Source: Escarpia spicata (Eukaryota > Annelida > Polychaeta > Sabellida > Siboglinidae). Taken from it: a stretch of 64,000 nucleotides of DNA. Position 1 is the first letter of the stretch, and every line of letters starts with the position of its first letter. Where the stretch lies: NCBI GenBank assembly GCA_963995525.1, contig OZ023213.1:49748592-49812591 (forward strand), in the 5' to 3' direction. The notes beneath the pieces are model-generated. The model saw nothing but the letters and a program-made list of their open reading frames with translations. It ran no database searches and had not been told where the DNA came from. A program made the position numbers and the translations under genes. Shown here piece by piece: positions 1 to 56,560 of the stretch.

Positions 1-1445
1 CTACTGGAGAGTTGTCTTCCCATGACACACACACAGACAATGTGGGTTAATGCAGATACTACTGGAGAGTTGTCTACCCATGACACACACAGACAAGGTG
101 GGTTAATACAGATACTACTGGAGAGTTGTCTTCCCATGACACACACAGACAAGGTCAGTTAATACAGATACTCCTGGAAAGTTGTCTACCCATGACACAC
201 ACAGACAAGGTCAGTTAATACAGATACTACTGGAGAGTTGTCTACCCATGACACACACAAACAAGGTGGGTTAATACAGATACTACTGGAGAGTTGTCTT
301 CCCATGACACACAGACAAGGTGGGTTAATGCAGATACTACTGGAGAGTTGTCTACCCATGACACACACAGACAAGGTCAGTTAATACAGATACTACTGGA
401 GAGTTGTCTACCCATGACACACACAGACAAGGTCAGTTAATATATATACTACTGGAGAGTTGTCTACCCATGACACACACAGACAAGGTCAGTTAATACA
501 GATACTACTGGAGAGTTGTCTACCCATGACACACACAGACAAGGTCAGTTAATACAGATACTCCTGGAAAGTTGTCTACCCATGACACACACAGACAAGG
601 TCAGTTAATACAGATACTACTGGAGAGTTGTCTACCCATGACACACACAAACAAGGTGGGTTAATACAGATACTACTGGAGAGTTGTCTTCCCATGACAC
701 ACACAGACAAGATCAGTTAATACAGATACTACAGGAGAGTTGTCTTCCCATGAAACACACAGACAAGGTCAGTTAATACAGATACTACTGGAGAGTTGTC
801 TACCCATGAAACACACTGACAAGGTCAGTTAATACAGATACTACTGGAGAGTTGTCTACCCATGACACACACAGACAAGGTCAGTTAATACAGATACTAC
901 TGGAGAGTTGTCTACCCATGAAACACACTGACAAGGTCAGTTAATACAGATACTACTGGAGAGTTGTCTACCCATGAAACACACTGACAAGGTCAGTTAA
1001 TACAGATATTACTGGAGAGTTGTCTACCCATGACACACACAGACAAGGTCGGTTAATACAGATACTACTGGAGAGTTGTCTACCCATGACACACACAGAC
1101 AAGGTCAGTTAATACAGATACTACTGGAGAGTTGTCTACCCATGACACACACAGACAAGGTCGGTTAATACAGATACTACAGGAGAGTTGTCTTCCCATG
1201 ACACATGCAGACAAGGTGGGTTAATACAAATACTACTGGAGAGTTGTCTACCCATGACACACACAGACAAGGTCAGTTAATACAGATACTACAGGAGAGT
1301 TGTGTACCCATGACACACAGACAAGGTTGGTTAATACAGATACTACAGGAGAGTTGTCTTCCCATGACACATGCAGACAAGGTGGGTTAATACAAATACT
1401 ACTGGAGAGTTGTCTACCCATGACACACACAGACAAGGTGGGTTA
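1..1445. repeat. Minisatellite, ~56-bp unit, about 25 copies
   Basis: Head-to-tail copies of a 54-58 bp unit built around GAGAGTTGTCTACCCATGAC, a short ACACAC run and GTTAATACAGATACTACTGG. Copies differ by point changes (TACCC/TTCCC, GGTCAG/GGTGGG) and by the length of the AC run. The array is cut by the window's left edge. It lies upstream of the first visible INTS2 exon, so it is probably intronic. The open frames across it are repeat artefacts. Confidence 0.95.
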
Positions 1446-1887: not shown

Positions 1888-2850
1888 ACTACTGTACCAA
1901 CTTCGCTGTGGCATGTCACATGATGATGTCATGTGATGTTGTGTTTCAATGTACCAACTACACTGGCATGTCACATGATGATATCATGTGATGTTGTGTT
2001 CCACTGTACCAACTACGCTGTGGCATGTCACATGATGATGTCATGTGATGTTGTGTTCCACTGTACCAACTATGCTGTGGCATGTCACATGATGATATCA
2101 TGTGGTGTTGTGTTTCACTGTACCAACTACGCTGTGGCATGTCACATGATGATATCATGTGGTGTTGTGTTTCACTGTACCAACTACGCTGTGGCATGTC
2201 ACATGATGATGTCATGTGGTGTTGTGTTTCACTGTACCAACTACGCTGTGGCATGTCACATGATGATGTCATGTGGTGTTGTGTTTCACTGTACCAACTA
2301 CGCTGTGGCATGTCACATGATGATGTCATGTGATGTTATGTTTCACTGTACCAACTACGCTGTGGCATGTCACATGATGATGTCATGTGGTGTTGTGTTT
2401 CACTGTACCAACTACGCTGTGGCATGTCACATGATGATGTCATGTGGTGTTATGTTTCACTGTACCAACTACGCTGTGGCATGTCACATGATGATGTCAT
2501 GTGGTGTTATGTTTCACTGTACCAACTACGCTGTGGCATGTCACATGATGATGTCATGTGGTGTTGTGTTTCACTGTACCAACTACGCTGTGGCATGTCA
2601 CATGATGATATCATGTGATGTTGTTTCACTGTACCAACTACGCTGTGGCATGTCACATGATGATGTCATGTGATGTTGTGTTTCACTGTACCAACTACAC
2701 TGTGGCATGTCACATGATGATGTCATGTGATGTTGTGTTCCACTGTACCAACTACACTGTGGCATGTCACATGATGATATCATGTGATGTTGTTTCACTG
2801 TACCAACTACGCTGTGGCATGTCACATGATGATGTCATGTGGTGTTATGT
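1888..2850. repeat. 57-bp minisatellite ending at an INTS2 splice acceptor
   Basis: About 17 copies of a 57-bp unit (19 codons, hence the long open frames on both strands). Each unit carries an inverted repeat, TCACATGA-TGATG-TCATGTGA, that can form a hairpin with 8-bp arms and a 5-nt loop. The last copy ends as TTATGTTTCAG, the 3' splice site of the exon at 2856. Inner copies read TTTCAC at this point, so they lack the AG. Confidence 0.93.
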
Positions 2851-2855
2851 TTCAG

Positions 2856-2966
2856 GACGACTACGGTTTATTGTGTGATCTGCGAGAAGTTCAGGGCGTC
2901 ATTTGTTCTCATCTCCACCAGATGTTCATTGCAAACCCCTGTCTTGTGAAGCTGGTCCACTTTCAG
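2856..2966 (+). CDS. INTS2: Integrator complex subunit 2, internal exon (first in window)
   Basis: This 111-nt exon (37 codons, phase 0 at both ends) is bounded by TATGTTTCAG at 2846-2855 and GTAGGA at 2967. It encodes a segment with DLREVQGVICSHLHQMF and ends in KLVHFQ, which I recognise as INTS2. INTS2 is a helical scaffold subunit of the nuclear Integrator complex, which cleaves snRNA 3' ends and terminates promoter-proximal RNA polymerase II transcription. Earlier exons lie left of the window, so only about the last fifth of the protein is present. The acceptor abuts the 57-bp minisatellite. The family call rests on remembered similarity together with the next four exons. Confidence 0.85.
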
Positions 2967-4857: not shown

Positions 4858-4965
4858 TGCTACCACCGTGCCTTGTTGCCAGCCACCGTAGCCGGCATCC
4901 CGTCTATGCACATCTGTCTCGACTTCATCCCTGAACTCATCAGTCAGCCAAACCTCGGCAAACAG
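4858..4965 (+). CDS. INTS2: Integrator complex subunit 2, internal exon
   Basis: This 108-nt exon (36 codons, phase 0/0) lies between TGTTCGCAG at 4857 and GTAAGG at 4966. It encodes CYHRALLPATVAGIPSM, then HICLDFIPELI, and ends in GKQ. The HICLDFIPEL motif is strongly characteristic of INTS2. In known INTS2 proteins this segment is followed directly by the IFA.QL.SHL segment. Here that segment is the exon at 15900, so the intervening 10.9 kb is a single intron. Neither splice site of this exon is embedded in a tandem array, unlike several others in the gene. Confidence 0.92.
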
Positions 4966-8227: not shown

Positions 8228-10284
8228 TCATTGACTAGGCATTCGCAGTTGTATTTTATTTGCCGGCAGAGTCTGCCTCGAGAGGTGTCTTCGGTGCATT
8301 ACCTTATTAGGCATGGCTTCACCCGTGCTGTCCTCTAGTGGAGGTTGTTTAGTTGAGGACGTCCTCAGAGACCTTGTCTTGTGTCTAGAGACACTTGTAG
8401 AGACTGCGTGGAGACACTGAGTGCTTCTCCCTGCTCTTGCTCCGGACTCTGTCCTTTCATTGGTCTCTCTTCCATCTTGGACGTCATTGTCCAGTCTTTC
8501 CATCCCGTCGTCAAGAGGTCGGAGTTCATGGGTTGACTTGGACAGTGGATGAGAGGTGTTCCGTGGGGTCGGGGTAGGGGATTGTCCATGGTGGGCCTGG
8601 GGTTTTATTTTCACTGAGTCATTCTGATATATTATCGTTGGTGGCACGTTTATGGTTATCTCTCTCTCTGTCTGTCTCTTGGCCTTTATTCGATCAGCAG
8701 AGTTTGCCTCCTGTGGTTCTACCTTGGCCATGACCTGTCCAGTAGATATTGCCTCCTTTAGATGTGGTTTGACTTGTCCGTCAGACTTTTCCTCATGTGT
8801 ATGTTCCTTGGTTTGCCTGGCAGACTTTGCCTCCTGTGGCTCTGCCATCGTTATGACTTTCCTATCAGACTTTGCCTCATCTGGTTGTGCCTTGGACAAG
8901 AGTTGCCTGGCAGGTGTTGCATGTTGTGCATGTGCTTTGGCCATGAATTGTGAGGCAGACTTCGCTTGCTGCTCGGCCAGCCACCTGTCTATCTCTGATG
9001 ATGTTAGTGCAGCGGCCATTTTCCTATTAATTTTTGTTGTTGTTGGCTTTAATACTTTGTTTGATGATTTCCCATTTTCTACCTGGAGCGTGTCGATGAC
9101 GCTCAAACCTGCAGTTTTGTCATTGTTTACATCAAAGACACCACTGTCTTGCAGCTTTGGTCGATCAGCCTTATACATCGCATTACCTGTCAACATTTCT
9201 TGTCTCTCTGGGCTGGAAACTACAGACATATGAGTAGCCATTCTGCTCCCCAGCGATGGCGTGGTCTCAGAGGTCGAGGTTACATTGCTGACCTCATCCT
9301 GAAGATCAGGGAGTAGCTGAAGCAACACCTGCATGCTCTGGTCGGCTGAAGACGATCGCTCAGCGAGGGTACCCTGGAGTTGTGTCAGCTCCAAATGTTT
9401 GGTCTTCATTGTCTGTTCGATCTGCTGCAGCAGCTTGCGGTGATGTTTGGTCTTTCTCTTCATCGTCTGCCCCTGCTGACTCAATTCTATCAGGTGGTGC
9501 TGCTTCTCTGTCACCTCCCGCTGTAGCCTCTGCATCTCTCCCACACTATGAATCAGGGAGAGAGACTCCCGCTCGAAGCGCCGCCGATGTCGCAGACACT
9601 GTCTGAGCGTGTGCTGAACCTGCAAGACGTCATCGGCGACCTCACTGAATCTCTCAAGCACGTTCTCTAGTCGCACTTGCAGCGACTGGCTGAGTTCATC
9701 GCGGTCATCGATGATGTTGACGATGTTGTCAGTGACTCGTTGTAGTTTCTCCTGCAGTGTCTGTCTCCTGCGTGGAGAGTCTCGCTGCGATCTCCCAGCA
9801 TCTTCCCCATGTCTCTCACCAGGCTTCTCCTCAAGCTGCTTCCCGGTGGAGCACAGTAAATAGGTCAGCAACACCTGCATGTTGTCATAGAAACCACACA
9901 TCTGCTGACACCCCTCTACCCCCTGCAGGTGTGACTTGAGTGTCTCCAGGTTGCGCAGCTCCTCGTTGACAAACCGCTCCGACAGGAACTGGCGTTGAAG
10001 CTCCTCCGCCAGACTCTCAGTGGTCTGGGTGCACTGACCGAGAAAGTTCCTCAGCTTGGTTACCTCCAGTTCCAGCAAGAGTCTCTCCTGAGCTGCCTGC
10101 TCCAACTGGGTCTCTTTCTCCTCCAAGGATCTGTCCTGCTCTCGCAGGATCATCTCAAACTTACGCTCGGTGAAACGCTGAACGATCGGCGTGTTTCGAC
10201 GGAAGATCGCGACAAAGCGTTCCATGGCACGGTCGGAGAAGTCGCTGCAGTGGGGCGCAATGTCACGGCGGAAGTGCTCTGTAG
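8228..10284 (-). CDS. CARD-coiled-coil protein 1, exon 3 (coiled coil and C-terminal tail)
   Basis: Last exon of a three-exon minus-strand gene. It starts after the acceptor CTACTTGCAG (10285 is the last intron base), begins in phase 1 and ends at the stop at 8228. With exons 1 and 2 the product is 784 residues. It opens with TEHFRRDIAPHCSDF, followed by several hundred residues rich in E, Q, L and R with heptad-like spacing, which I read as coiled coil. The tail contains degenerate repeats of about 20 residues (EAKSDRK, EAKSARQ, EEKSDGQ, EAISTGQ, EANSADR), encoded near 8690-8990. The whole gene lies inside an INTS2 intron on the opposite strand. CARD plus coiled coil suggests an oligomerising innate-immune or death-signalling adaptor. 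I do not assign an orthologue. Confidence 0.85.
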
Positions 10285-11671
10285 CTGCAAGTAGAGACCA
10301 ACTCCATTCACACGGGCTCTACATAGGCATGGGAAGGGGGTGGGGAAACAGGCAGCTGGCCACAGGAAATTTGCTGTGGGCTGACATATTATGTTGTTCC
10401 AACAATAAGCCAAAACTCAAGATACTTGTTATATTAATCTGAAGATATATTTTAAAGCCTCAAGGTGGGTTTATTTGGTGAGCATCAACTGGGGTGCAAA
10501 TCATGGTTTTTTAATGTTGTTACAAAAAATATTCAACAGCCTCCGTCTTCCGACGTCATGATCCGACAGCGGAGTGATAGTGCTTAAGCTCCAGCTCAGT
10601 CCACACAACATTAATTTATTCCCACACCAGAGGGGCTCAAAGAGGTGGCCACATCAGATCAAAAAAGTCCAAAAAACTGACAGTGTTATACACGGGTGGG
10701 TGGAGGTCATCACCATGTATTATAGGGAAAATAAATCACTACGATGGCCCCAAGTAGAACAGGTATTAAATTACATTGATGCTGTTTGTGGATGTCAGAA
10801 CCAGGCAGGTGGTGGGTGATGTCTTGGCAACAATGTCATGTCAGTTGAATCAGGCGGCTATTGGCTTTGGTTTGGAAGCCATTTTGGTTTGCTCAAAATC
10901 TGTTTGTGATGGGTGGAAGTTTGAACAGTTGCAAAATACAATACATTGTTTAAGACTTTGCAAACGTGTGAAATCACTGCTTATGTGTAAGTTAGTTTAT
11001 GATTTTATTTCATAAATTTAACAAAGTTCATTATGTGTGTGTAAGTGGTAGGGGCATTGGACAGGCTGTACGTATTTAAATGACATGTTTAACAAAATGA
11101 ACTGTCAGTCAGACTTAAGTGAGTGACACAGTATATATAACTAGAATTATGACACAGTTGACAGAACTAGTACAACATTTATTAAACTAAACTAATTATA
11201 AATCATAAAACATTTAGATTTAATATACCACCAGCCGCACCAGATAGCACTTCACTGGTAGCTTTCAAGCAGCAGTTGGGATGCTGGGCAGCAAACTAAT
11301 CCCACAGTCCACGCCACATAATATTTAAGGACAATGAAAGTGTTTTTAACCACATTTTTATTCACCATTTACATGGTTTTTAATTATATTTCAAACAGCC
11401 GACATCGCGTCACGCATGCGCACCAAAAAAGTAACAAACCTTTGCGACATTACCCAGAAGTCTGGGCTTCCACATTATCCAGAAGAAGAAGAACATTACT
11501 GATTTGATCGAGGCAACTGATTCAGAATAGCTTTAGATGTGGTAGACCTAATTTATTTATTCAGTGTTAACAGAGTTGCTATAAATTGAGTTGCTGCAGT
11601 TACTGGCAGCACCAGGCATACTTCTTCCTGTGTGTCATTGACAGAAGTGGTTGATGCATATAGTTGCTGAC
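10285..11671 (-). other. Intron 2 of CARD gene 1
   Basis: Spans from donor GTCAGC (11671 downwards) to acceptor TTGCAG (10285). It contains the small interspersed fragment at 10505-10615. Otherwise I see no RNA gene or coding sequence; short open frames here lack support. Confidence 0.7.
10505..10615 (+). mobile_element. Fragment of the interspersed family seen as copies A and B
   Basis: Matches the internal segment at 23875-23975 and 41550-41650. All three share a poly-A-like AAAAA..TTCA(G/A)CAGCC stretch, GTCTTCCGA(C/T)GTC, a GATCCGA motif and a TGCT(G/T)AAGCTCC repeat before CTCAG. No coding potential. It marks the family as multi-copy in the genome. Confidence 0.6.
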
Positions 11672-11813
11672 CTTCCGTGACCTTGAGGTATTCGGCCACG
11701 TGTGCGTGGTCACACTGGATGAGTGCCTCACAGAATGCGTCGAAGGCTGAAGGCCCCCTGGTGGGAAGCATGTCCAGTAGAGCCGCCACCATCTCTCGAC
11801 TAGTTTTCTCACT
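11672..11813 (-). CDS. CARD-coiled-coil protein 1, exon 2 (second half of CARD)
   Basis: This 142-nt exon lies between acceptor TTACAACAG and donor GAAG|GTCAGC, entering in phase 0 and leaving in phase 1. It encodes SEKTSREMVAALLDMLPTRG then PSAFDAFCEAL and HVAEYLK. The LLDMLPTRGPSAFDAF core is a textbook CARD helix 4-5 signature, as in CRADD/RAIDD-type CARDs. CARDs are six-helix death-fold domains that mediate homotypic assembly. The exon length and phases equal those of the paralogous exon at 34567-34708, which fixes both gene models. The open frame continues to 11553 past the donor, but that extension would prevent joining to the coiled-coil exon. Confidence 0.9.
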
Positions 11814-11871
11814 CTGTTGTAACATAAAACATCTTACCAGTCAGAGTGCTTAAGTGTGGCTATAGCAGGGA

Positions 11872-15899: not shown

Positions 15900-16005
15900 A
15901 TCTTCGCAGTACAACTCGTGTCCCACCTGAGTCTGCAGTATGCACTGCCTAAGTCTCTCAGTGTTGCCAAGTTGGCCGTCGGCGTCATGGCTACGCTGCT
16001 CACAG
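15900..16005 (+). CDS. INTS2: Integrator complex subunit 2, internal exon
   Basis: This 106-nt exon enters in phase 0 after TGTGTTGTAG and leaves in phase 1 at CACAG|GTAGGT. It encodes IFAVQLVSHLSLQYALP, then KSLSVAKLAVGVMATLLT. The segment SHL..QYALPKSLSVA.LAV is a highly conserved INTS2 block and joins seamlessly to ..LGKQ from the exon at 4858-4965. The donor GTAGGT is the first member of a degenerate ~23-bp tandem array in which GTAGGTCA-type words recur about 15 times. Confidence 0.93.
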
Positions 16006-16385
16006 GTAGGTCAGCCAAGTAGGTCATGTGAGGTCAGCCAAGTAGGTCATGTGAGGTCAGCCAAGTAAGACATATGAGGTCAGCTAGTAAATTGTGTGGT
16101 CATCAAAGTAGGTCTGATGAAGTCAGCCAAGAAGGTCATATGAGGTCAGACAAGTAGATTGTGTGTGGTAAGCCAAGTAGATTATGTGCATTCAGCCAAA
16201 TAGATTGTGTGAGGTCAGCCAAGTAGGTCACACGATGTCAGCCAAGTAATGCATGTGAGGTCAGCCAAGTATACCATGTAAGATCAGCCAATTATGTCAT
16301 CTGGGGTCGGCTAGTATGTCATGTGAGGTCAGCCACGTAGGTCACATGAGGTCTGCCAAGTAGATTATGTGAGATCTGCCATTTT
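16006..16385 (+). repeat. Degenerate ~23-bp array seeded at an INTS2 splice donor
   Basis: The intron begins GTAGGTCAGCCAAGTAGGTC. The motif GTAGGTCATGTGAGGTCAGC plus CAA then recurs with substitutions (GTAAGACATATGAGG, GTAGATTGTGTGAGG and so on) for 380 bp, nearly to the next exon. Because the first unit is the functional 5' splice site, several later units are cryptic donor-like (CAA|GTAGGT, CAA|GTAAGA). Confidence 0.85.
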
Positions 16386-16415: not shown

Positions 16416-16583
16416 TATTGTCGAGTGAGACGCGCCCTCACTTCTTCCTCGCGACCTTGCCGACCCTGCCTCGCATCAGCCAGGCCTTCCCACCACTGTG
16501 TGAGGACATCATCCTCCTGCTGCTGCAGCTGGGCCGTGTGGCTACCTCATACCTCACTGGCACTGCCAACATGGCGGGAACTG
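16416..16583 (+). CDS. INTS2: Integrator complex subunit 2, penultimate exon
   Basis: This 168-nt exon enters in phase 1 after TTATTTCAG and leaves in phase 1 at GGAACTG|GTGAGT, using the first of about 23 tandem donor copies. It encodes LSSETRPHFFLATLPTLP, then AFPPLCEDIILLLLQLGRV, matching the INTS2 block FF..TLPSL..F..AFPPL.EDI...L.Q.G. Its final 34 nt (YLTGTANMAGT) and the first 20 nt of the intron form the 54-bp unit that is amplified downstream. Because 54 is a multiple of three, use of downstream donors 2-22 would add 18-residue repeats without shifting frame. The last unit lacks one base. Confidence 0.9.
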
Positions 16584-17770
16584 GTGAGTTATTACAAGGT
16601 GTCTACCCCACTGGCACAGCCAACATGATGGGAACTGGTGAGTTATTACAAGGTGTCTACCCCACTGGCACAGCCAACATGATGGGAACTGGTGAGTTAT
16701 TACAAGGTGTCTACCTCACGGGCACTGCCAACATGGCGGGAACTGGTGATTTATTACAAGGTGTCTACCTCACTGGCACTGCCAACATGGCGGGAACTGG
16801 TGAGTTATTACAAGGTGTCTACCTCACGGGCACTGCCAACATGGTGGGAACTGGTGAGTTATTACAAGGTGTCTACCTCACTGGCACTGCCAACATGGCG
16901 GGAACTGGTGAGTTATTACAAGGTGTCTACCTCACGGGCACTGCCAACATGGCGGGAACTGGTGAGTTATTACAAGGTGTCTACCTCACGGGCACTGCCA
17001 ACATGGTGGGAACTGGTGAGTTATTACAAGGTGTCTACCTCACGGGCACTGCCAACATGGTGGGAACTGGTGAGTTATTACAAGGTGTCTACCTCACTGG
17101 CACTGCCAACATGGCGGGAACTGGTGAGTTATTACAAGGTGTCTACCTCACGGGCACTGCCAACATGGTGGGAACTGGTGAGTTATTACAAGGTGTCTAC
17201 CTCACTGGCACTGCCAACATGGCGGGAACTGGTGAGTTATTACAAGGTGTCTACCTCACGGGCACTGCCAACATGGTGGGAACTGGTGAGTTATTACAAG
17301 GTGTCTACCTCACTGGCACTGCCAACATGGCGGGAACTGGTGAGTTATTACAAGGTGTCTACCCCACTGGCACAGCCAACATGATGGGAACTGGTGAGTT
17401 ATTACAAGGTGTCTACCTCACGGGCACTGCCAACATGGCGGGAACTGGTGATTTATTACAAGGTGTCTACCTCACTGGCACTGCCAACATGATGGGAACT
17501 GGTGAGTTATTACAAGGTGTCTACCTCACTGGCATTGCCAACATGATGGGAACTGGTGAGTTATTACAAGGTGTCTACCTCACTGGCATTGCCAACATGG
17601 CGGGAACTGGTGAGTTATTACAAGGTGTCTACCTCACGGGCACTGCCAACATGGTGGGAACTGGTGAGTTATTACAAGGTGTCTACCTCACTGGCACTGC
17701 CAACATGGCGGGAACTGGTGAGTTATTACAAGGTGTCTACCTCACGGCACTGCCAACATGGCGGGAACTG
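16550..17770 (+). repeat. 54-bp array duplicating an exon-intron boundary ~22 times
   Basis: Each unit consists of an exon-like part (TACCTCACTGGCACTGCCAA, CATGGCGGGAACTG) followed by the donor and intron start (GTGAGTTATTACAAGGTGTC). Donor copies begin at 16584, 16638 and so on every 54 bp to about 17717, plus a last one at 17771 (GTGAGATAAT). Two copies read GTGATTT and are predicted weak donors. The frame is open through all but the last unit, where one G is lost (CACGGCACT), shifting the frame. Confidence 0.96.
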
Positions 17771-18287
17771 GTGAGATAATTTTGTCATAATTCTGTAGCA
17801 AAATACCCATCCTCCAGAATAGATAACTTAGTCATTTGTAAGCGGCTCTATGTACTTGTCTTGATTGATAGGTCAGAAACCAAGCAGCCAAGTTGTTAGT
17901 TTGATATTGTCCACCAGAGGGCACTACATACACACAGCTGTATTGGGACTGTTTTTCACAACTTATTCGTTTGACAAAGATTAAATAACTTGAACAGAAC
18001 AAGCCACACTTGCAAGTCTTGCAAGAAACAATGTAATTTTATACAGTGTTTAGGAACAAAATTAATTGTCAAGCAGACAGCTAAAAGCCTCCCTAAATAT
18101 GCTGTTGATCATAAAAGTAAGTTGTTATATAACGCAGTTTCCAGTCGTCAGGACTGCTCAAAGCACTTTACACTTTACTCCCTGGCAGACTTGTTCAATT
18201 GAACACCATCTCGACTTCTCTGGGAAACATTCAGCCATGCTTCAGTTAATGTGCGAAGACGATTTCTACACAAATATCCACCACTGT

Positions 18288-18440
18288 CTGTAGCCAGGTA
18301 CTCATTCATACAGCTGAGTGAACTGGAACAATGTAGAGTAACTGAACTTGCCCAAGGTTCGACATCACAGCAAGAGGAATCAAACCCAGGTTCTCTCAAG
18401 TGAGAGTTTGATGCTCTAGCCACTGCGCCACTGCGCTCCA
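18288..18440 (-). mobile_element. tRNA-derived SINE
   Basis: On the minus strand it begins GGAGCGCAGTGGCGCAGTGG, an A-box-like head. A B-box-like GGTTTGATTCC follows about 45 nt later, then a body containing ACCTTGGGCAAGTT and CACTCAGCTGTATGAATGAG and ending near GTACCTGGC. This head-plus-conserved-body layout is typical of tRNA-derived SINEs. The ACTTGGGCAA-type body motif recurs after the tRNA-like head at 43026. Intronic in INTS2, antisense. Confidence 0.75.
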
Positions 18441-18531
18441 CCCGTTGTATCGTATGCCAGGAACTCTGATGTGAAATAGTGGTCTGTCCCCACATGAGCT
18501 ATCCTGGAGTGAGGTTGTCATGTTGACTGTG

Positions 18532-18800
18532 TTTCAGACATTGTGTGTTCACAAGCCACCTTGGGTTTCAGACATTGTTTGTTCACAAGCCACCTTGTGT
18601 TTCAGACACCGTATTTTCACAAACCACCTTGGGTTTCAGACATTGTTTGTTCACAAGCCACCTTGTGTTTCAGACATCATGTGTTCACAAGCCACCTTGT
18701 TTTTCAGATATTGTGTGTTCACAAGCCACATTGTCTTTCAGACATTGTGTGTTCACAAGCCACCTTGTGTTTCAGATATTGTGTGTTCACAAGCGACCTT
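18532..18800 (+). repeat. 34-bp array duplicating a splice acceptor 8 times
   Basis: Exact 34-bp period. TTTCAG 3' splice sites end at 18537, 18571, 18605, 18639, 18673, 18707, 18741 and 18775. Each is followed by ACATTGTGTGTTCACAAGCC-type sequence, which is the start of the last INTS2 exon. Only the last acceptor keeps frame, because 34 is not a multiple of 3. The copies have lost the exon's later part and retain ~25 nt of exon start plus a short pyrimidine run. Confidence 0.95.
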
Positions 18801-18957
18801 GAGCAGCGAGACACAGCTGGTCCCGAGGCAGCCAGGACAAAGAGACGATGACATTCTCACGAGCCTCAAACTCTACACACAGCTCAGCAACGCCATTCAA
18901 CAAACCTTCCTGCAAATTGTCAACTCTACGGCACTTCTGCGACACCAACTTCACTAG
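18776..18957 (+). CDS. INTS2: Integrator complex subunit 2, last exon and stop
   Basis: Enters in phase 1 after TGTGTTTCAG (18775) and reads DIVCSQATLSSETQLVPRQP, later DDDILTSLKLYTQLSNAIQQ, ending at TAG 18955-18957. The C-terminal amphipathic segment corresponds to the INTS2 C-terminus, where a short helical stretch closes the protein. Phase 1 from the exon at 16416 matches exactly, and the five exons sum to 225 codons including the stop. The exon's first ~25 nt have been copied upstream seven times. An alternative start at a later AG (GAGCAG, 18806) is out of phase with the preceding exon. Confidence 0.85.
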
Positions 18958-25669: not shown

Positions 25670-26440
25670 CCGCTCGGCACCAAAGCATTTACAGTCCTTT
25701 GTGAAAATGAAAACTTTCTTATATCCAATCTACTCTGCTCCTTTACTAATGTAAGTTCATGTCCTCTAGTCCTTCTATCTTTCTTAACTGAGAAAAAAAT
25801 ATTTCTATCAATATTTTCATAACCCTTCAATATTTTAAACACTTCTATCTGATCTCCTCTCAATCTCCTGGTCTCTAGTGTTGTTAAACCGCATTTTTTA
25901 GGCGTATTTCATAACAAAGATCCCTCAGTTTTGGTATCATTTTAGTTGCTCTCCTCTGCACTCTTTCTAGCATATCTATGTCCTTCCTGCGATATGGCCT
26001 CCATGCTTGAATACAATATTCTAAATGAGGCCTAACTATTGTTTTGTACAGCGGTATTATTAGCTCTTTTTCCTTATACGTTATGTTTCGCCTAATCAAT
26101 CCAACGATTTGATTTCCCTTTGAAGCTGCAATTCCGCACTGCTGTGAAACCTTCATATCAGCACTAATGGTTAACCCTAAGTCCTTTTCTTTTACAGTAG
26201 TACTTAGTACAGTACCCCCCCCCCCCCCCATTGTATATTGTACCTCTTCGTTCCCATGCCCTGTGTGGAGGCATTTACATTTCCCAAAATTGAAGAGCAT
26301 TTGCCACTTTTCAGACCATTTGATCAACCTGTCAAGATCATCTTGTAAATAATGTCTATCTCCATCACTTTTAATCCTTCTAAATACTTTTGTATCATCC
26401 GCAAATGTCAACACCTTGCTTGTTATTTCATCATCACTGT
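25670..26440 (-). mobile_element. CR1-like LINE fragment nested in the L2-like LINE
   Basis: The minus-strand translation begins near 26440 with DDEITSKVLTFADDTKVFRR (RT motif C as FADD). It continues through the thumb region (KWQMLFNFGKCKCLH, IVRPHLEYCIQAW, MLERVQRRATKMI) and ends in a C-terminal segment LRGDQIEVFKILKGYENID after a frame break near 25885. It is 5'-truncated. A 14-C run lies at 26217-26231. The terminal part also occurs as a fragment at 42890-43020. Confidence 0.85.
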
Positions 26441-28174
26441 AGAGTCTGACCCACCTGTCATCGACGATATCAGTATCACTGACGGGATATCTGATCATTC
26501 AGCGATCATGGAGAAAATCCGCCTACAGCGACCTCGAGTTCAGAGAAAAGTGGTAAAATCACGCAACATTTCTACAATTAAAATTCCATCATTTTGTGAG
26601 GAATTAATTTACATGGATCTTAACAATCCCGCTCACGCCAACAACGCGCTGTCTGCACAAGTTGAGAGATACAACAATATTCTCACCCAAGCTCTTGATA
26701 GGCATGCTCCGATGAAGGAACGGTATGTGAAACTTCGCCCAAATTCTCCGTGGTTTGGGTGAAAAGATCATGATAGGGAAGTAGTTACGGCGCCAGCTTG
26801 AGAATAAATGGAGAAAATCACGTCTTGAAATTGACCGTCAAAATTACTGCCATCAGAAGCAAGCGGTAATTCATCAAATCAAACTGGCAAAATCACACTA
26901 CTATAATCAGCTATTCATCAACATCGCTAAAGACCAAAGGCGAATTTTCCGTCTGACTAACAAACTCCTTCACCGGCGACATAACTCGCCCCTTCCGAAG
27001 TGTGAATCTCAGCAGGATTTGGCTCATAGTTTCCATCTCTTCTTCAATGCGAAGGTAAAGCGGATCCGAGAGGAGTTTGACATAGTAGATGATCTGCATT
27101 TTCCTACGAGAGATCTCCCATCGCCCGAATTCGCGAGCTTTCATGAAGTGTCTAAGCAAGATATACAGAAGTTACTCTCACAGTCGCCAGGAACAACCTG
27201 TGACTTGGATCCAATTCCATCTTCACTACTGAAGAAGTGTGCCGATGCCGTATTGCCAGCGATGGCACACATTATCAACAATTCAATGAACTCGGGCGAG
27301 ATTCCCCCCTCTCTTAAAGCTGTGCAGATCCGTCCTGTGTTGAAGAAGGCAAACTTGGACCCAACTATATCATCAGGAAGCACGGCCTCAATTATCATTG
27401 CTACGCGGACGATGCACAAATATACCTATCAGCCGATCCCACACAGTCAAAAATTATTGACACAATACAGCAAATTGAAGCCTGCCTTGACGAGCTACGT
27501 CAGTGGATGTCGCAAAACTTCCTCAAGCTGAATGATGGAAAGACAATTCATTGTCGTCGGATCCAAACAACATAGATCAAAGGTCAGCATCACACAGATC
27601 AGGGTGGGCGACACCCTGGTTACTCTTTCGGACAGCGTCAGGAATCTCGGTGTTATCTTTAATGAGAACCTTTCTATGGATAACAATATCGCCGCTGTAT
27701 CCAGAGTCGTATGTCTGTCAATTCGTAATATTGGCCTGATTCGTAAGCACATCAAGCAGCCGGTTGCGGAACTACTTACTCACGCTCTCATTACCTCAAG
27801 ACTGGACATGGGCAATGCTCTGTTTCACGGCCTCAACAAATCACAACTACAACGACTCCAGCGACTACAAAACACTGCTGCCAGACTGGTTACTCTCTCC
27901 AAGAAATTCACAAACAGCACACCTATCCTCAAACAACTACACTGGCTGCCAATCGAACAGAGGGTCATCTACAAAATATCCATACTTATATTCAAGACAA
28001 TCCACCGTGTCTCTCCTACCTACTTGTGCAACCTCGTCAAACAGTACAGTGCGATCCCGTGAAAATCTGCGCTCTGCAAACAAGTTACTCCTAGTAGAAC
28101 ACAAACTGAAACACTCGTGGGGAGCACGGTCGTTTATAATATCCGCAGCAAAGATCTGGAATGCGCTTCCAAAC

Positions 28175-28440
28175 ATTGCTAGAGCTACTACAACAATCAA
28201 CACCTTCCAAACAATGTTAGAGCTACTACAACAATCAACACCTTCCAAACAATGCTAGAGCTACTACAACAATCAACACCTTCCAAACAATGTTAGAGCT
28301 ACTACAACAATCAACACCTTCCAAACAATGTTAGAGCTACTACAACAATCAACACCTTCCAAACAATGCTAGAGCTACTACAACAACCAACACCTTCCAA
28401 ACAATGTTAGAGCTACTACAAAAATTAACACCTTCAAAAC
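28175..28440 (+). repeat. 38-bp tandem repeat inside LINE coding end, ~6 copies
   Basis: Units of ACAATG(C/T)TAGAGCTACTACA plus ACAATCAACACCTTCCAA amplify a segment of the L2-like C-terminal coding region (NTFQTMLELL..). 38 is not a multiple of 3, so the reading frame is destroyed. This is a post-insertion expansion. Confidence 0.92.
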
Positions 28441-29271
28441 CCACCTCTTTAAAATATACTTAGAATAAGACATGATGTGGACATGTGGACATTTCCTGGA
28501 CATTGTATAATACTGATCTTATACTATTTATGAATATACTTTTATTGTATTTATTATTTATTGTATTACTTATAATATCGTAACATTTATTATGTATACT
28601 AGATACAGAATTTTTTAAAGTTTGTATTAACGAGTCTACATTACATTGATAACTATATTTTTTATTGATTTTATGATGTATAATTTATAATTCATGATAC
28701 TCATTTCATAATTTTTAGAATCTTGCTCTTATTATATTTTAGAATAGTGATTTTTTTATTCTTAAAATTACTACTTTAAAGTCACCAATGGTCAAATACT
28801 GTGCTAGCGCCACGAGCGCCTCTACGGCGGATACCGGCGCTATATAAGTCTTTATTATTAATTCGTATCCATATATTTCGGCTAGCCGTTTGTTTGTGTT
28901 ATTAATGACATTTTCTGGGTTGATTAGGCCACTTTTAAAGAAATAAGTTGTTTTATGTATAGCGTGACATGTTTTGGCCCTATGTCGACAGCTTGTACGC
29001 CTGCAGCAGTGTTCGTGCGTGCGCGGACGTGTGCAGGGCCGGATTTATGGTAGGACAAACATGCAGTTGCCCAGAAGCTGCCACGAAATATAGTAACGTA
29101 TATTGATTACTTCAATATAATGCGAATTTGTTTTCTAAATGGACAAAGTAGTATTTAGCAGAGAAGTCGCTATTGTACAAACAAGAAGAGTGATAACTAT
29201 TATGATAGATACCCAGTCAATCACTGCTCAGGGACCTCGACAGTCCTAAATCAAGCGCCGTGCGTATGCGT

Positions 29272-29522
29272 GCGTGTGTATTTGAGTGTGTTTGAGTGTG
29301 TACGTGTGTATGTGAGTGTGTTTGAGTGTGTGCGTGTGTATGTGAGTGTGTTTGAGTGTGTGCGTGTGTATGTGAGTGTGTTTGAATGTGTGCGTGTGTA
29401 TGTGAGTGTGTTTGAGTGTGTGCGTGTGTATGTGAGTGTTTGAGTGTGTATGTGAGTGTGTTTGAGTGTGTGCGTGTGTATGTGAGTGTGTTTGAGCGTG
29501 TGTATGTGCGTGTGTATGTGTG
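29272..29522. repeat. 28-bp TG-rich minisatellite
   Basis: Repeats of GTGTGCGTGTGTATGTGAGT plus GTGTTTGA, about 8-9 copies with a few shortened units. It lies between copy A and the Penelope-like element. Confidence 0.9.
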
Positions 29523-29577
29523 TAATACGATACTCTAAGATAAGATATTATTTATTATAATAAACGCACAGAAAAAG

Positions 29578-29618
29578 TTTCTTGTGAAATCATTATGACA
29601 TAATGATTTCACAAGAAA
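29578..29618. repeat. Perfect palindrome at the PLE end (20-bp arms, 1-nt centre)
   Basis: TTTCTTGTGAAATCATTATG, one A, then its exact reverse complement. The right arm is the PLE terminal sequence (also present inverted near 31345-31365); the left arm duplicates it in opposite orientation, giving a snap-back end. Confidence 0.95.
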
Positions 29619-29635
29619 TGTTCTCTTCTTTTGAA

Positions 29636-29673
29636 CATATCGACTGCTTCTGACAGTCTACATCGGTAGAATG
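29636..29673 (-). ncRNA. Decayed hammerhead-ribozyme-like motif in left PLE terminal repeat
   Basis: On the minus strand: CCGATGTAGACTG, a short loop and AGCAGTCGATAT. Compared with the hammerhead core (CUGANGA, stem II, GAAA) it has T4 changed to C and A9 to T, and GATA for GAAA. Stem II (GACTG..CAGTC) is intact. Penelope-like elements are known to carry hammerhead motifs in their pseudo-LTRs; the partner copy at 31291 has different lesions. Unlikely to be active. Confidence 0.5.
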
Positions 29674-31290
29674 ACGATACGGGTGTGTCACATGATTACT
29701 GTCATGTGATACAATCTGGAGAAGGACTGCTGGGAGCTCTTGGCCGACGTAGCGATTTAATGTAGGTTTTCCTCTGTGGATGTTGATTTCTTCCTTTATT
29801 TTTCTTCGGTGCCAGTTCTCCTCGTGGTCTGAAATTGTGACGTCTTTCAATGCATTGATGGCATGTGTAGTTCATGTTCACTTATGGCTGATAGGGGTTG
29901 GCGATATGACATATGTTCTTTCAGTCTTGTGCCAAGTGCTCTAGCAATGTAGTGCTGGTCACATTCTGGACATTGGATGTCATATACTACACTACACTTT
30001 GCTGCCTTTTCCGCCCTGTCCTTCGGGTGCACCAGTAGTGATCTCAGGGTGTTGATAGGTTTGTGGTATACTGGTATGTCATAGGACTTGAACATCCTTG
30101 TCAATTGTTCTGACAGTTTACTGATGTAGGGCAGACCTGTGGCGTGTTGTCTTCTACTGCTTTCTGTGGTGTCATTCTTCTGTCTCCTTGGGTTAGTGAT
30201 GTTCAACATCCATGGTTTGTAGTCATTCGCTTTCAATACTTTTTAGTATGCTCCACCTTTTTGGTCTTATCTTCATCTTCTGTTACCAAGCTTTCTGCTC
30301 TTTGTAGGAGTGTTCTCACTACCGATCGTTCTGTTCTAGGTGGTGATTAGAGTCCCAGTTCAAATACTTATCTGTGTGGGTTGTCTTTTGGTACACCTTT
30401 ACCATGGTTGATCCATCGTCCTTCAGACATATACACGTGTTTAGGAAGGCTAGCATACTGTCTTGTTCTGGTTCTACCATGAACATGATGTTCTCGTCCA
30501 CCGAGCTCTTCTACTTCACTCCCTCGCAGCACTGTGAATGTGTCATCCACGTATCTCAACCAGACGTCTGGAGGATGAGGTGCTTCCCTGATGGCTGTTT
30601 ATTCAAAATGTTCCAAGTATAGGCTCGCCACTATCGGTGATACCGGTGACCCTTTGACTGCACCCGTCGTCTGTTTACAGAACACTTCGTCGTAAACAAA
30701 GTACGTGGTGTTTAGATAGATTTCTAACAGTGTAATGATCTGGTTTACTGATAGTTCACATCTGTCTTTCAGTATTATGAGGTGGTTTAATCGGTCCCTG
30801 ATCAGCGATACTGCCTCTGTTACTGAGATACTAGTTAACAGAGCTGTCACATCAAACGACATAATTTTTCTTCCTGGTGGAAATTCCAACCCTTTGAAGT
30901 TCTTTACAAATTGTGCGTTGTTTTAAAAAAATGTTCGGCTTTCCCAACCAGTGGGCTCAGAATGGTGGCTAGAAACTTTGATGTCTTGTATGTAATGTTG
31001 CCTGTGTATTCGATATTATGGGTTTTACTGGTACCCTGCGTTTGTGGAACTTAAGCTATCCATAGAAGTGTGTGATTGTTTCCGACGTTGGGTAGACCCT
31101 GTGGTATATAGGTCCTCCGAAATGGTATTGGACCTTTTCCACTTTATCATGGTGTTAACTAGTTTGCCTTTGTACACTCCAGTAGAGTCCCTTTTCAATT
31201 TATTATTTCTCGTCAGCCAAGAGCTCCCAGCAATCCTTCTCCAGCTTGTGTCACATGACAGTGATCATATGACATACCCGTAAAGTCACA

Positions 31291-32956: not shown

Positions 32957-34113
32957 CTAATAGCTAACGTTGGGATATATCACGCCAGATGTCACGTTTG
33001 TCTTTACCTCCGGGCGCTTCTTAATGCTATTAAGATCCTTCTTTTGGAATTTATCATTGGAGCTAGATGATACTTTGTCTTTTGTCACTGCACGTTTAGG
33101 TTTCTGTGCTTCTGGTGGATACGACTGCGATTTGTTGTTGAACTGGAATTCGTCTTTTGCGTTTGTTCGAACTGTTGGGGCAGCGTCTTGCTTCTCGTCT
33201 GATCTATCTTCTAAGCCTGAGCTTGACTCACCCGACCTGCGACTATAGAAGCGTTGCGTAACGCGGATAGCAGATTTCACGCGGTCTTGTAGTTCTTGTT
33301 TGTTTGCTTCCTTCTGCAACCGTGTTTGTTTAATTGTACCCTCCAAATGTTTCATGTGTTTTTTTGTCTTTTGTTTAACCTGTTTCATCCTGCTTAAACG
33401 TTTTGTTTGGTCCGCAAAGTCCTCCTGGAGCTGAATATTTTTATTAAGCAATCGGATCATCTCTTCACAATTATACAGCAGCAACGCACAGTCTGACTCT
33501 TCAGTGTGTGACACAGAGTCAGTATCTACACAGGTATCATCGATGCCTTCTGTGTCGGATTCCGTTGTTGCAATGTCACACGTTGTCTTCCGATCATGAA
33601 CATGCGTCTTGCCTGATTTGATCATCTCGCTCGCTTCTTCCTTCTGTATTGCTTCTTCCGTCTGTGTCTCGATATCGCGATTACGACTACCGAAACCTTT
33701 CAGATTGTTATGTACATACGTAACGATGTTCTGCATGTCGTCGAGGAATGTAGGAATATATTTCTTCATCTTCGTGACGTCGAACTTTGACATGTATGTG
33801 TCGAGTTGTTTCTGCAGTTCTGCGACCGCGACGTCTGAGATATGAAAGTCAGACAGCTCGCTGGCTATTGCCGCAGCCATATTTACGTAAAGTCCAAGAC
33901 AAGTACGTAGTGACTCTGTCTCTTCGGTTGCCTTGTTGCGTTCTTCCTCTGTTGTCTCCAACGCTTTCGTCTGTTCTTCCCCGATCACATCAGACATTTG
34001 TTTACCAAACATCATCATCTTGCTAGTGGAGTCTTTGAATGATTTCATACACATACCTTTAAATTTGTCATTTGCAACACACGTCTCCAACACATGGCCG
34101 TATTGCGCGCTCG
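32957..34113 (-). CDS. CARD-coiled-coil protein 2, exon 3
   Basis: Last exon of the second CARD gene. It starts in phase 1 after acceptor ACTGTCTTTCAG (ends at 34114) and stops at 32957. It encodes SAQYGHVLETCVANDKFKG, a charged helical region (TEEERNKATEETESL, VAELQKQLDTYMSKFDVTK) and a second likely coiled coil around LLNKNIQLQEDFADQTKRLS. A K/S/T-rich tail follows with a possible basic patch (PKRAVTKDKV). With exons 1-2 the protein is 478 residues, shorter than paralogue 1. No ATG is needed in this exon because translation begins in exon 1. The role (CARD-driven adaptor) is inferred from architecture only. Confidence 0.82.
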
Positions 34114-34566
34114 CTGAAAGACAGTTGGTTTCATGTTAAACAATCATTCAGTTAGAGTCGATAGTATGCAGTAACCAAGAGTGCGGTTTTATATAAGAAA
34201 TGTTAGATTTGTTTTGTAAACAATACTTACGATTCTCCGTGCAGTGTTCTTGTTGATGGATTCACAAGTAGGTCTTAAATACACGTTTTAAAAATATGTG
34301 TTTAAATATTACAAACTTCGATATATTTGAAGATCTAATATGACTTGATTTAGTCATCTGATTCCACGATCGACATTATTATCGTGATGTTACGTTTAAT
34401 TATATAAATGTTCTGCGTATAACCGTAATTTCTATCTAAATCGTATGTCTAAATGTTCTAGTACCTTTACTACCCTGTTAATTAGCTTAAAAACAACGAA
34501 TTGTGTATGTCTTGAATATGACGATAATCAACGCATCAACAAAACGTTGCAGTATAAAACACTGAC

Positions 34567-34708
34567 CTTCGTCCTGTTTCAGCTTCTCAGCAATGAAAGA
34601 CTGCGAGCCTTTAATCAGGGCCTGAATGAACATATTGTAGGCGTCTGGTCCACAGGTTTGGAGAATTTCCAGCAGTTTGGCGATTTTATCAGACTTTGTT
34701 GAGCAACT
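34567..34708 (-). CDS. CARD-coiled-coil protein 2, exon 2 (second half of CARD)
   Basis: Exactly 142 nt, as in paralogue 1. It lies between acceptor TCTTTTGCCAG and donor GACGAAG|GTCAGT, with the same phases (0 in, 1 out). It encodes SCSTKSDKIAKLLEILQTCG, then PDAYNMFIQALI and FIAEKLK, clearly parallel to SEKTSREMVAALLDMLPTRG/PSAFDAFCEALI in gene 1. The usual Arg of the CARD TRGP motif is Cys here (TCGP), so surface charge at this helix junction differs from canonical CARDs. Confidence 0.87.
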
Positions 34709-35006
34709 CTGGCAAAAGATTACAGCAGGTTGTTAGGGGAGGGCTTGTGCGTAATGCACTGCGTTTAGGCTTTGCAAAAGTTATTGCAAGTTAATTAGAA
34801 GCTCGAAGACAATAACAGTGTCGCAAGATTAAATATGTTACCAATGACAGTTTTGAAAATATACTAAATAAACTCACATAAATAAATACAGATCAAAATT
34901 TATTTTACCTTGAGGCTTTTATGCTATTGCTTGGTCCACGTACTATGCACTTCCTGGTAAAATATATAACCGGAATTAGTAGTAGTATGATGTACAATCG
35001 CGATTT

Positions 35007-50503: not shown

Positions 50504-53500
50504 CTAACGTTCAGGCGGCTTTATAGCTCTTCCTGATCTGGTCACCGTCACACATGGAGAGGTCGTGTCTCCGGTTAGACTAGTGTCGGTGTGCTGTGGC
50601 GATGATCGCGTCGTCTCCGTAGTAGGTGCGCGCGATCTGCTTTCACTCACATCTGGGATGCAGGATGGTTGTGGCCCTCTCACCTGACTGGTCATCGCAG
50701 GTTGTTCGTCCGGAGTAGGAACCAGAACTCTCCTGTTACGTCGCACCGTGCCGTATTCGGTTCTCACGAGATACGATCTAGGGTGATGTGTCTGTCTCAG
50801 TATCCTGCCCTGTCGGTCCTGATCCCTAACCCATACTTGGTCACCTTGCTGTAGGACAGGAAGTTCCTCTGTCCTATGTCGATTGTTGTAGGTACGTGTT
50901 TGGTTGGACCTGTAGGTGTCCTCTTTGGTTCGGACCTTCTCTCTGTCACCGGTCTGTACCCTTGGCTGAAGCGTGCTTGGGAGTGTTGGCAGTTGTGTTC
51001 GTAACCTTCTTCCCATCAGTAGTTCGGCTGGGGATAGCCCATTCTGTAACGGAGTTGACCGATATGTGAGAAGAGCCAGGTAATGGTCTTCGTTCTTCCT
51101 GAGCAACGCTTTCACTGTACGGACAGCTCTCTCCGCCTCGCCATTGGCTTGCGGATATCGCGGTGAGCTCGTTGTGTGAATGAACCCATATGTTGCTGCG
51201 AACTGTCGAAATGCATCAGCACTGAATTGAGGCCCGTTGTCTGACATGACAACATCTGGTATGCCGTGAACGGCAAACAGTTCCTTCAGCGTTGTGATGA
51301 CACTTTCTGATGTTTGGTCGCGAAGCTGCTTGATCTCAATCCATCTCGAATAATAGTCAATTGCGATGAGATATGCAATTCCATGAAACTCGAAAAGGTC
51401 CATGCCAAGCCTCTCCCAGGGACGAGATGGGAACGATGCTGGCATGAGTGGTTCTTTGGTTTCCGGACGATCTTTCGCACAAGTTGAGCACTTGTTAACC
51501 ATGTCTTCTATGCAGTTGGACAATCCTGGCCACCACACCGATGTGCGAGCCCGAGCGCGACATTTCGTGATACCAAGATGGCCCTGGTGTACGCAGTGTA
51601 GTATATCCAAACGCATGGCCCTCGGAATCACGATGCGTTCGTCAAACAGTAGGAGATCATCGACTACCGCGAGATGGCTCCTGGTCTCCCAGTACGGTCG
51701 TATCAGCGGCAGATGTGGCACGTAAGCTGGCCATCCTATTGTGCAAAATGTTCTGACTTGTTCGCACTCAGCGTCTGCTTTCTGTGCCGCTCGAATGTCC
51801 TGTAGACGTTTCTCCGTAGCTGGAAGTATGGTTACTGTGTGTTTCGCGTAACACTCTACCTTTTCCACAAACATGATGTCGGTCTGCTCTGGGAAGTTGA
51901 CGGGAGCGCGAGATAATGCGTCAGGTGTCGTTTGATGCTTTCCCGGGACGTATACGACTTCCGGGTTGTATCGCATTATTCTCAGACGAAATCGTTGGAT
52001 GCGAGGTGGCATCTTGGCTAGCTCTGTTGTTTTCAGAAGTGGCACGAGAGGTTTGTGATCAGTCTCGAGCGTGAAGTTTAGCCCATCACATACTCTCTGA
52101 ACTTCTCGCAAGCCCAGGTTGCTGCAAGAGCTTCCTTCTCTATGACTGCATAGCGTTTCTCGGTTTCTGTGAGTGATCGGGAAGCATAGCAGACTGGACG
52201 ACGTCTGCCACCATCTTGAATTTGCAGTAACACTGCACCGATCCCCTGAGAAGATGCGTCTGCTGCGATTACTGTTGGGCGGTTTGGGTCATAGAGTGCA
52301 AGTACGTCGGGTGATACAAGCATCTCTTTCACTTGCTGGAAGGCAGTTTGTTGTGCCTCTTCCCATAACCATGCCCTGTCTTTGCAGAGTAACTGGCGTA
52401 ACAGTTCGTTGATATCAGCCAGTCGTGGAATTAATTTTCCCATTTGGTTCACCATACCCATGAAGCATTGGAGTTCCGTGACTTTGGTGGGAGCTGGGAA
52501 TTGTGCGATGGCTGCCGTCTTATTGCCTCTGCATGTATCCCTGAGGCATCGATGACATGTCCCAAGAACTTGATCGACCGCTTTGCAAATTCACATTTGT
52601 TGTTCAGCGTCAGTCCGGCTTGCTGTAAGCGTAGCATGGCTCTAACGCGCTTGTCATGTTCTGGTTTGTCTTTGCCATGTATCAAGATGTCGTCTATGTG
52701 GCAGATTACTCCTTCTTGGCCTTCCAGAATGGCCGACATGGAGCGCTGGAAAATCTCACTTGATGAGCTGATACCAAACGGAAGTCTGTTAAAACAGAAT
52801 CGCCCGAAAGGTGTGACGAATGTTGTGAGAAGCCTGGACTCCTCATCCAGTGGAAGTTGCCAGAATCTGCTGTTGGCGTCAAGTTTTGTGAACAACTTGC
52901 TTGTTCCCACCTTAGCTAAACTTTCATCCACAGAGTGCATTGGGTGTATCTCCCGTAGGACCGCTCGATTTAGCTGTGTGAGATCGACACAGATGCGTAG
53001 TGAAGTTCCTGACGGCTTGGGAACAATCACAAGTCCCGAACACCAATCTGTGGGTTGTGTGACTGGAGAGATGACCCCCTGTCGCTGCATCATCTCAAGT
53101 TCCTCTTTCACCTTCGGCAGCAGAGGATGCGGGATCTTCCTCGGTGCGTACAAACACACTGGTCTGGCGTCTGCGCGAAGCGTCACATGATATTCAGTCT
53201 TCAACTTGCCGAGGCCAGTAAATAGACTCGGAAATTCTGCTTTGAAGTTCGCTGTTGGATCATTTACTTCCTCAACGCTTCCAGACCGCGACACAAGTCC
53301 GAGTTTAACACAAGCTTGTTTGCTCAACAGTGAACACTGCTGGTTATGTAGGACGTATACTGTTTCAGTTACTTCTTTGCCACGGTATTTCAGGGTCGCG
53401 TGGAGTGTGTCCCTGACCGGCAGATGGATGCCCCCTGGTCCACGGAGTTTCTTCTGATTCCTGTGGAGCTGAACCCGTTTCAACCACTGTTCCCTGTCAC

Positions 53501-53790
53501 TTATGACCGAAACTGATGCGCCTGTGTCGAGTTTGAAGCGTGTGTTATGACCGTTCACACTAACGCGTGCTGACCAAAAGTCACTCTCGTCTTTGATCTC
53601 CCCCAGAAATGAGATGTCCTCCCTCTTTACTTCGTGGACTCTGCCACTGTGTCTCCTGACTGCACTGCCGCGACACACTGCTGGGAAGTGCCCTTGTTTT
53701 CCGCATGCCCGACAGCAGTCATCTTTAGCTGGACATTTCTGCCTGTCGTGTGCTGGTTGACGCCCGCACCAATGACAGGTACTAGTCGTG
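50504..53790 (-). pseudogene. Defective pol of the LTR element (protease, RT, RNase H, integrase)
   Basis: Reading on the minus strand: two CCHC-type zinc knuckles near 53775-53670 (CHWCGRQPAHDRQKC; CRACGKQGHFPAVC). Protease follows with LDTGASVSVI, then RT with WCSGLVIVPKPSG, LRICVDLTQLN, FNRLPFGIS and the catalytic box HIDDIL in place of the usual YxDD. RNase H has VIAADASSQGIGAVL and LETDHKPL. Integrase has an HHCC zinc domain, then D (GMDLFE), D (SDNGPQF) and E (ANGEAERA). Frame breaks lie near 52450-52510 (RT to RNase H) and near 52080-52110 (inside RNase H). The integrase part is the longest intact stretch (50504-52111). Confidence 0.9.
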
Positions 53791-53889
53791 TCATTGGGGT
53801 GAGTGTAGCCTCGTTTTGGCTTTTTGCTCCATTTTCTGGGTACTGCTTTATTAGCTGGTCTGACGTGACCGATTTCGCGGGCACTGGAG

Positions 53890-55988: not shown

Positions 55989-55989
55989 G

Positions 55990-56539
55990 TCTAGCTTGCG
56001 TGCCTCCGCCTGGCGGATAATCTGGACAGCTTGCTTAAGCGTCAAATCTGGTTTTGACTGTAAGCGATCTGACAGCCCGTTGTCAGCGACGCCTGCGACT
56101 ATTCTATCGCGGATCAACTCGTCCTTTAGTTCACCATAACTGCAGTTTTCTGCCATTCGGTATAAGTCTTGTATGAAACTATCGACTGGCTCTGATGCCG
56201 TTTGTCGTCGGGTGTTGAAACGTGCCCTTTCGACAATGGTGTTTCTTCTCATATTGAAATACTGGTCAATGGCAGATTTTACCTCAGCGTACGTTGCCTT
56301 ATTTTCATCGATTTTGATCGTGGTCAGAATAGCGTCTGCACATTCGCCCATTGCATATAGCAAAGTGCTTACTTGTTCAAGCTGTGACTTCGCTTGTAGG
56401 CCTGATGCAACGTTACTCGGTAACGTTCGAATCTTGTTGACCATTTTGTCCATAACTCAGTTTGCGCTGGACCTGTTGCTCCTTCGAATTTCCCTGGAAG
56501 GGGAAGTTGCGTCGATTGGCGTACCTCTTCGTTGGCCAT
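55990..56539 (-). pseudogene. Truncated gag of the LTR element
   Basis: The ATG at 56539 opens MANEEVRQSTQLPLPGKF and WTKWSTRFERY. A frameshift near 56400 moves to the frame with SQLEQVSTLLYAMGECADAI, ARFNTRRQTASEPVDSFIQD and LKDELIRDRIVAGV, a typical retrotransposon capsid-region layout. The frame ends where the LINE is inserted (..EARKLDRI). The missing stretch to the zinc knuckles cannot be judged. Confidence 0.8.
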
Positions 56540-56560
56540 GTTCGTGTACCGCTGCCACCA

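Follow-up and report, generated by a model that had tools for sequence, protein, structure and literature searches.

The window analysed here, a stretch of 64,000 nucleotides (C10:49748592-49812591) in an assembly of 1.06 Gb, contains the 3' end of the INTS2 gene (Table 1). This identity, proposed in an earlier note on the same DNA, is borne out by matches of the exons to PF14750 (Pfam, E 4.5e-30) and to the human INTS2 chain 7cun_B (E 4.8e-25). The best named protein match is INTS2 of Lamellibrachia satsuma (91% identity), the Ridgeia piscesae protein being 83% identical; judging from these matches the source animal is a siboglinid tubeworm close to both. A genome profile search gave 18 INTS2 matches, starting at C10:49711947 and all on a single contig, and picked up single upstream exons that Pfam scans of the plus-strand frames had missed. 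Sixty kb around INTS2 were taken for a gene-wide survey of tandem arrays, in which the exon numbers (E1-E19) are those of the present analysis. Exons for profile positions of about 392-417, 670-708 and 821-861 were not located, and three of the 17 introns listed may hide an exon. On the minus strand (window 8228-11840), the 10.9-kb intron between E16 and E17 holds an exon with a CARD domain (PF00619, E 3e-7) and an open frame of 696 aa, the ORF at 8228-10318; by eye, a pair of frames at 32960-34732 resembles this pair. Frames resembling retroelement polyproteins and reverse transcriptases were also seen by eye at 25887-31000 and 50507-56617. Rfam at gathering thresholds gave no match within the window.

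Table 1. INTS2 exons and tandem arrays placed in the window.
Feature	Position	Strand	Unit (bp)	Copies and matches	Basis or remark
E14 donor array, right part	1..1439	+	56
Array before E15	1891..2854	+	57	17 copies	stops 2 bp short of E15 acceptor
Exon E15	2856..2966	+			profile search, placed edges
Exon E16	4858..4965	+			profile search, placed edges
Exon E17	15900..16005	+			Pfam and profile search
Array at E17 donor	16008..16381	+	23	16.4 copies, 73% matches	diverged
Exon E18	16416..16583	+			final 34 nt are donor-array copy 1
E18 donor array	16550..17775	+	54	22.7 copies by TRF (23 by copy), 95% matches
E19 acceptor array	18528..18801	+	34	8.1 copies by TRF (8 by copy), 87% matches
Last exon E19, with stop codon	18776..18957	+			first 26 nt inside acceptor array

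The two arrays of the last intron

The last INTS2 intron, between E18 and E19 (window 16584-18775), is arrayed at its donor end and at its acceptor end. The donor unit consists of 34 nt of exon and 20 nt of intron, and the acceptor unit of 10 nt of intron ending in TTTCAG and 24 nt of exon. The copy-level cut thus confirms the earlier observation that both units contain an exon edge and an intron edge, as it does the eight TTTCAG acceptors in a 34-bp unit, the motif being present in every copy with exon starts ranging from 18538 to 18776. The description of the donor side as a 54-bp unit with some 23 GTGAGT-type donors was right in number but slightly generous in wording, since exact GTGAGT is found in 20 of the 23 copies, GTGATT in two and GTGAGA in the final one; the first donor GT lies at 16584 and the last at 17771. 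No 9-mer is common to the two arrays on either strand, which supports the view that the units are unrelated and that two independent expansions struck one intron.

Among the 22 full donor copies seven of the 54 columns vary, six of them within the exon part. Nine copy types can be told apart, in the order a b b c a d a e d d a d a d a b c f g h d a i, and we read this partly repeating order as unequal exchange of blocks. Copy 1 has the same sequence as interior copies. The donor unit was found at a single locus of the 1.06-Gb genome, the present one, by a search that skips very common words; on this result an origin of the unit from a dispersed satellite was rejected.

Joining donor 1 to acceptor 8, that is, the first donor to the last acceptor, gives a single open frame through to the stop codon, in agreement with the phase originally worked out for this pair. 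Donor copies 1-22 are open in one frame, and a final step of 53 bp places donor 23 out of phase. The claim that donors 2-22 keep the frame is therefore sound, and the accompanying claim that upstream acceptors mostly shift it needs the amendment that acceptors 2 and 5 are also in frame. The conserved C-terminal tail is kept by 69 of the 184 donor by acceptor pairs, namely any of donors 1-22 joined to acceptor 2, 5 or 8, or donor 23 joined to acceptor 1, 4 or 7. The first-donor/last-acceptor junction, AGT/DIVCSQATL (a slash marks the junction throughout), is present in the gene models of L. satsuma and R. piscesae (P0001, P0002). The model of a third relative (P0004, ENA) continues for 38 residues beyond the donor and meets no repeat; if it reads straight into the intron, this animal would have a single donor here. 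At a position where the exon copy encodes Thr, all three relatives (P0001, P0002, P0004) have Ile, and so do array copies 19 and 20 (codon ATT). This pattern hints at an older variant of the exon surviving in the array and at homogenisation having overwritten the exon edge, the alternative being a reversal within these copies. Donor 1 (16584) and acceptor 8 (18776) are the sites most likely to be used in splicing. RNA accessibility was rejected as a cue for donor 1, all 23 donors being predicted to be nearly wholly paired. A coding use of the read-through repeat was likewise rejected, as a protein search with its frame found no homologue among the 7997 candidates scored.

Arrays at splice sites along INTS2 and in other genes

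Tandem arrays occupy 38% of the 60-kb INTS2 locus. On its 19 exons, 10 of the 35 splice sites placed lie inside arrays of up to 51 copies: the donors of E3, E4, E7, E11, E14 and E18 (units of 41, 28, 44, 44, 56 and 54 bp) and the acceptors of E4, E8, E12 and E19 (31, 40, 66 and 34 bp). In the E4 and E8 acceptor arrays the overlap with the exon is merely 4-6 nt, which leaves a firm junction-spanning count of eight. An array edge lies within 18 bp of three further sites (E5 donor, E15 acceptor, E17 donor), and the remaining 22 of the 35 have no array within 60 bp, save the E18 acceptor. The donor positions of E6, E7, E8, E9 and E12 were set 1 bp early, a shift that the spanning counts tolerate; the E11 donor (CAG/GTACAA) was placed from frame and profile only, the E2 acceptor is a rough guess without an AG, and the E1 and E9 acceptors are unplaced.

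The E14 donor array starts 45 nt within E14, upstream of the window, and as a whole covers C10:49747637-49750030 with 43 copies by probe. In the array before E15 the interior copies have, by eye, no AG at the corresponding place, and the last copy alone reaches the AG. The E17 donor array starts 2 bp into the intron, makes up 91% of its 410 bp and leaves 35 bp between its end and the E18 acceptor. Both ends carry an array in introns 3, 14 and 18 (in intron 14 an array abuts the acceptor). Array content reaches 88-91% in introns 3, 14 and 17; six of the 17 listed introns have none, and three have arrays in their interior only.

The ten INTS2 sites were compared with two null models. Circular shifts of the 28 gene-body arrays, counting sites with an array edge 4-60 nt inside the exon, gave a mean of 1.00 and a maximum of 5. 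When one seed unit per array was placed randomly, with wholly exonic placements forbidden, 20,000 trials gave a mean of 0.81 and a maximum of 6. The excess over random placement is a direct observation, as are the arrays, their units and frames and the single locus of the donor unit.

In a sample of myosin-head, AP-complex adaptin and SNF2 helicase exons, arrays span 9 of 100 edges where 2.24 would be expected (Poisson p 5e-4), the edges being those of profile matches and the gene sample small and uneven. By family the spanned edges number 0 of 38 (myosin), 4 of 26 (AP) and 5 of 36 (SNF2); an array lies close by at four further edges (one myosin, three SNF2), and arrays cover 4-24% of the sampled exon flanks. 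Near-duplicates were dropped (11 of 30 myosin loci, 2 of 16 AP loci), as was one AP locus that is a long single ORF. The count excludes another fourteen AP loci (L061-L074) that are copies of one exon, and one more such copy may remain among the 13 kept; the SNF2 loci are 18 of 57 matches, the first in rank order without inner stops. Where script and eye differ, L057 (AP) merely abuts its acceptor and L081 (SNF2, scored as near) spans by 8 nt, so that the total stays at nine. Repeated junctions read ACAG/GACTGTGAGGACAGT at L046, TTACAG/GGCTACCTGTTC at L051, TTGTAG/GATGGATAG at L053, CCCCAG/CTGCTCTATGA at L080 and CTCAAG/GTACAC at L090. Junction arrays recur in two of the three further families sampled, and their rate varies strongly between genes.

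The copies were also compared with one another. In the ten INTS2 arrays GT or AG positions are mutated in 25 of 456 cases and neighbouring positions in 140 of 3192 (p 0.28), a test weakened by the non-independence of the copies and by the E7 site set 1 bp early. Fifteen of the 25 changes come from the E11 donor array (C10:49734976-49737244, starting in L011), the sole array to oppose the trend, in which GT is changed in 15 of 51 copies as against 7 of 714 at 14 neighbouring positions. In the last intron GT is kept in all 23 donor copies and AG in all eight acceptor copies. Over all ten arrays, the copies have neither preferentially preserved nor preferentially lost their splice dinucleotides. 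The true site is unlike the copy consensus in six of the ten arrays (16-base probes). At E4 the true donor is GTACGT and the copy consensus GTAAGT, which we judge to be stronger; site strength alone is therefore unlikely to decide which site is chosen. In eight of the ten INTS2 arrays the unit length is not a multiple of three, so that free use of inner copies would wreck the conserved protein. By analogy with human factor VII, as summarised in passages of a review (PMC6627357), the exon-most site would be the one chosen.

Origin of the arrays

We think it likely that both arrays of the last intron are junction-spanning minisatellites, arising by local duplication at the junctions and unequal exchange and tolerated through outermost-site use. 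A short stretch across the exon-intron junction would have been duplicated in tandem in situ and then multiplied via slippage or unequal exchange, with the outermost copy of each array still attached to the true exon body. With donor 1 and acceptor 8 in use, the rest of both arrays would be intron and nearly neutral; splicing at these exon-most sites is our proposed reason for the arrays being tolerated. The process may have struck ten of the 35 INTS2 sites as well as some exon edges of other genes, and introns would in this way have grown from their ends. The duplication mechanism, the neutrality and the choice of the outermost site are what we infer. Of the interpretations in the earlier note, that of independent expansions stands and passive expansion with the outermost sites used is favoured, if indirectly, whereas relaxed selection at one intron is less favoured given the gene-wide excess. 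The data favour instead a seeding preference at junctions or exon ends, because the pattern is gene-wide, recurs in two of three families and exceeds random placement. Seeding at junctions looks the same as seeding at any exonic position with later loss of the wholly exonic arrays, and a splice-templated mechanism is possible. More speculatively, a junction-preferring mutational process may act genome-wide in this tubeworm lineage, with introns growing from their ends and the spliceosome obeying a strict outermost-site rule; we hold this wider reading with some reserve. If true, the rule would pick out the first of dozens of near-equal donors and the last of up to 19 near-equal acceptors.

Minisatellites might instead grow everywhere in a repeat-rich genome and some of them simply fall on splice sites, with no preference for junctions. 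The array cover at the INTS2 locus and in the sampled exon flanks is consistent with this, as are the introns with interior-only arrays and the lack of an excess in myosin, but the ten INTS2 sites observed against 0.8-1.0 expected, together with the nine edges in the other families, make it rather unlikely. It is also conceivable that internal copies are used, donors 1-22 with acceptors 2, 5 and 8 yielding a graded series of INTS2 isoforms whose C-terminal part gains up to 21 additional 18-residue repeats. The near-identity of the donor copies, the open frame of copies 1-22 and the tail-keeping pairs would suit such a series. We nevertheless regard it as improbable: five of the seven variable unit columns alter the amino acid, the sister INTS2 arrays mostly shift the frame (eight of ten units), the read-through frame has no relative among the candidates scored, and the gene models of two relatives show a single junction.

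Selection for the arrays, for example as back-up splice sites or splicing enhancers, could account for the intact GT and AG dinucleotides of the last intron. We consider it highly improbable, given that these dinucleotides are not spared over the ten arrays and that GT is so often lost in the E11 copies. An assembly artefact is scarcely credible. The arrays are known here from assembled sequence alone, but the donor copies fall into nine distinct types in an ordered pattern, many different units occur across different genes, and short arrays, of some 2.5-10 copies, show the same anatomy at AP and SNF2 exons.

Relation to known junction arrays

Junction arrays are already known gene by gene, from the 'mirages' of amphioxus and from human F7 intron 7. 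The amphioxus mirages are tandem duplications of exon-intron boundaries, described in extracts of two papers (PMC3087553, PMC3902484) for Adh3, globins, PGBD5 and troponin C and said in the first to leave regular splicing undisturbed. They resemble the tubeworm arrays, whose units likewise span the exon-intron boundary, in lying on the donor or the acceptor side and in carrying splice signals in many copies. The same extracts present single-gene cases with copy numbers of 3 and 6 (globin 6) and 2-7 (PGBD5). The tubeworm case differs in that the animal is an annelid, that ten of 35 sites in one gene are arrayed, with up to 51 copies, that one intron is arrayed at both ends, and that the excess was tested against nulls. 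It also extends to other families, arrays being found at INTS2, AP-complex and SNF2 exons, though at none of the 38 myosin edges. Passages of the factor VII review (PMC6627357) describe near-identical 37-bp repeats of variable number in F7 intron 7 and a mutated 5' splice site in the first of them; the most upstream 5' splice site alone is normally used, and downstream cryptic sites when it is mutated. That array concerns the donor side only, in one human intron. The E18 array would start at the used 5' splice site, provided that this is donor 1. Intron gain by tandem genomic duplication, in which the duplication carries splice signals (PMC3087553, in extract), differs in that the tubeworm arrays enlarge existing introns; the junction is the same in the L. 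satsuma and R. piscesae gene models. Among the extracts of open-licence literature on tubeworms, annelids and Lamellibrachia, including the Ridgeia genome paper, we found no annelid report of junction arrays.

What had been a few amphioxus cases becomes, with the tubeworm arrays, a dense natural experiment in another phylum. Dozens of near-equal donors or acceptors at one junction offer a direct in vivo test of exon definition and of first-AG scanning. The array content of introns 3, 14 and 17 suggests a route of intron lengthening, and the question is raised why junctions should be prone to tandem duplication. Caution is also called for, as genes of this kind may be misread in short-read assemblies and by gene predictors.

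Two minor observations concern the loci sampled outside INTS2. At L040 the stretch from about 260 to 1500 bp upstream of a myosin exon holds an array whose unit, by eye, contains a myosin-like exon end followed by GTAAGT; this is perhaps another junction array or a set of repeated alternative exons. An adaptin-like exon (profile 279-335), which in most copies has an inner TGA, recurs dozens of times in near-identical form across many contigs (L061-L074 and others), sometimes about 65 kb apart, which we read as a dispersed or satellite-like gene fragment.
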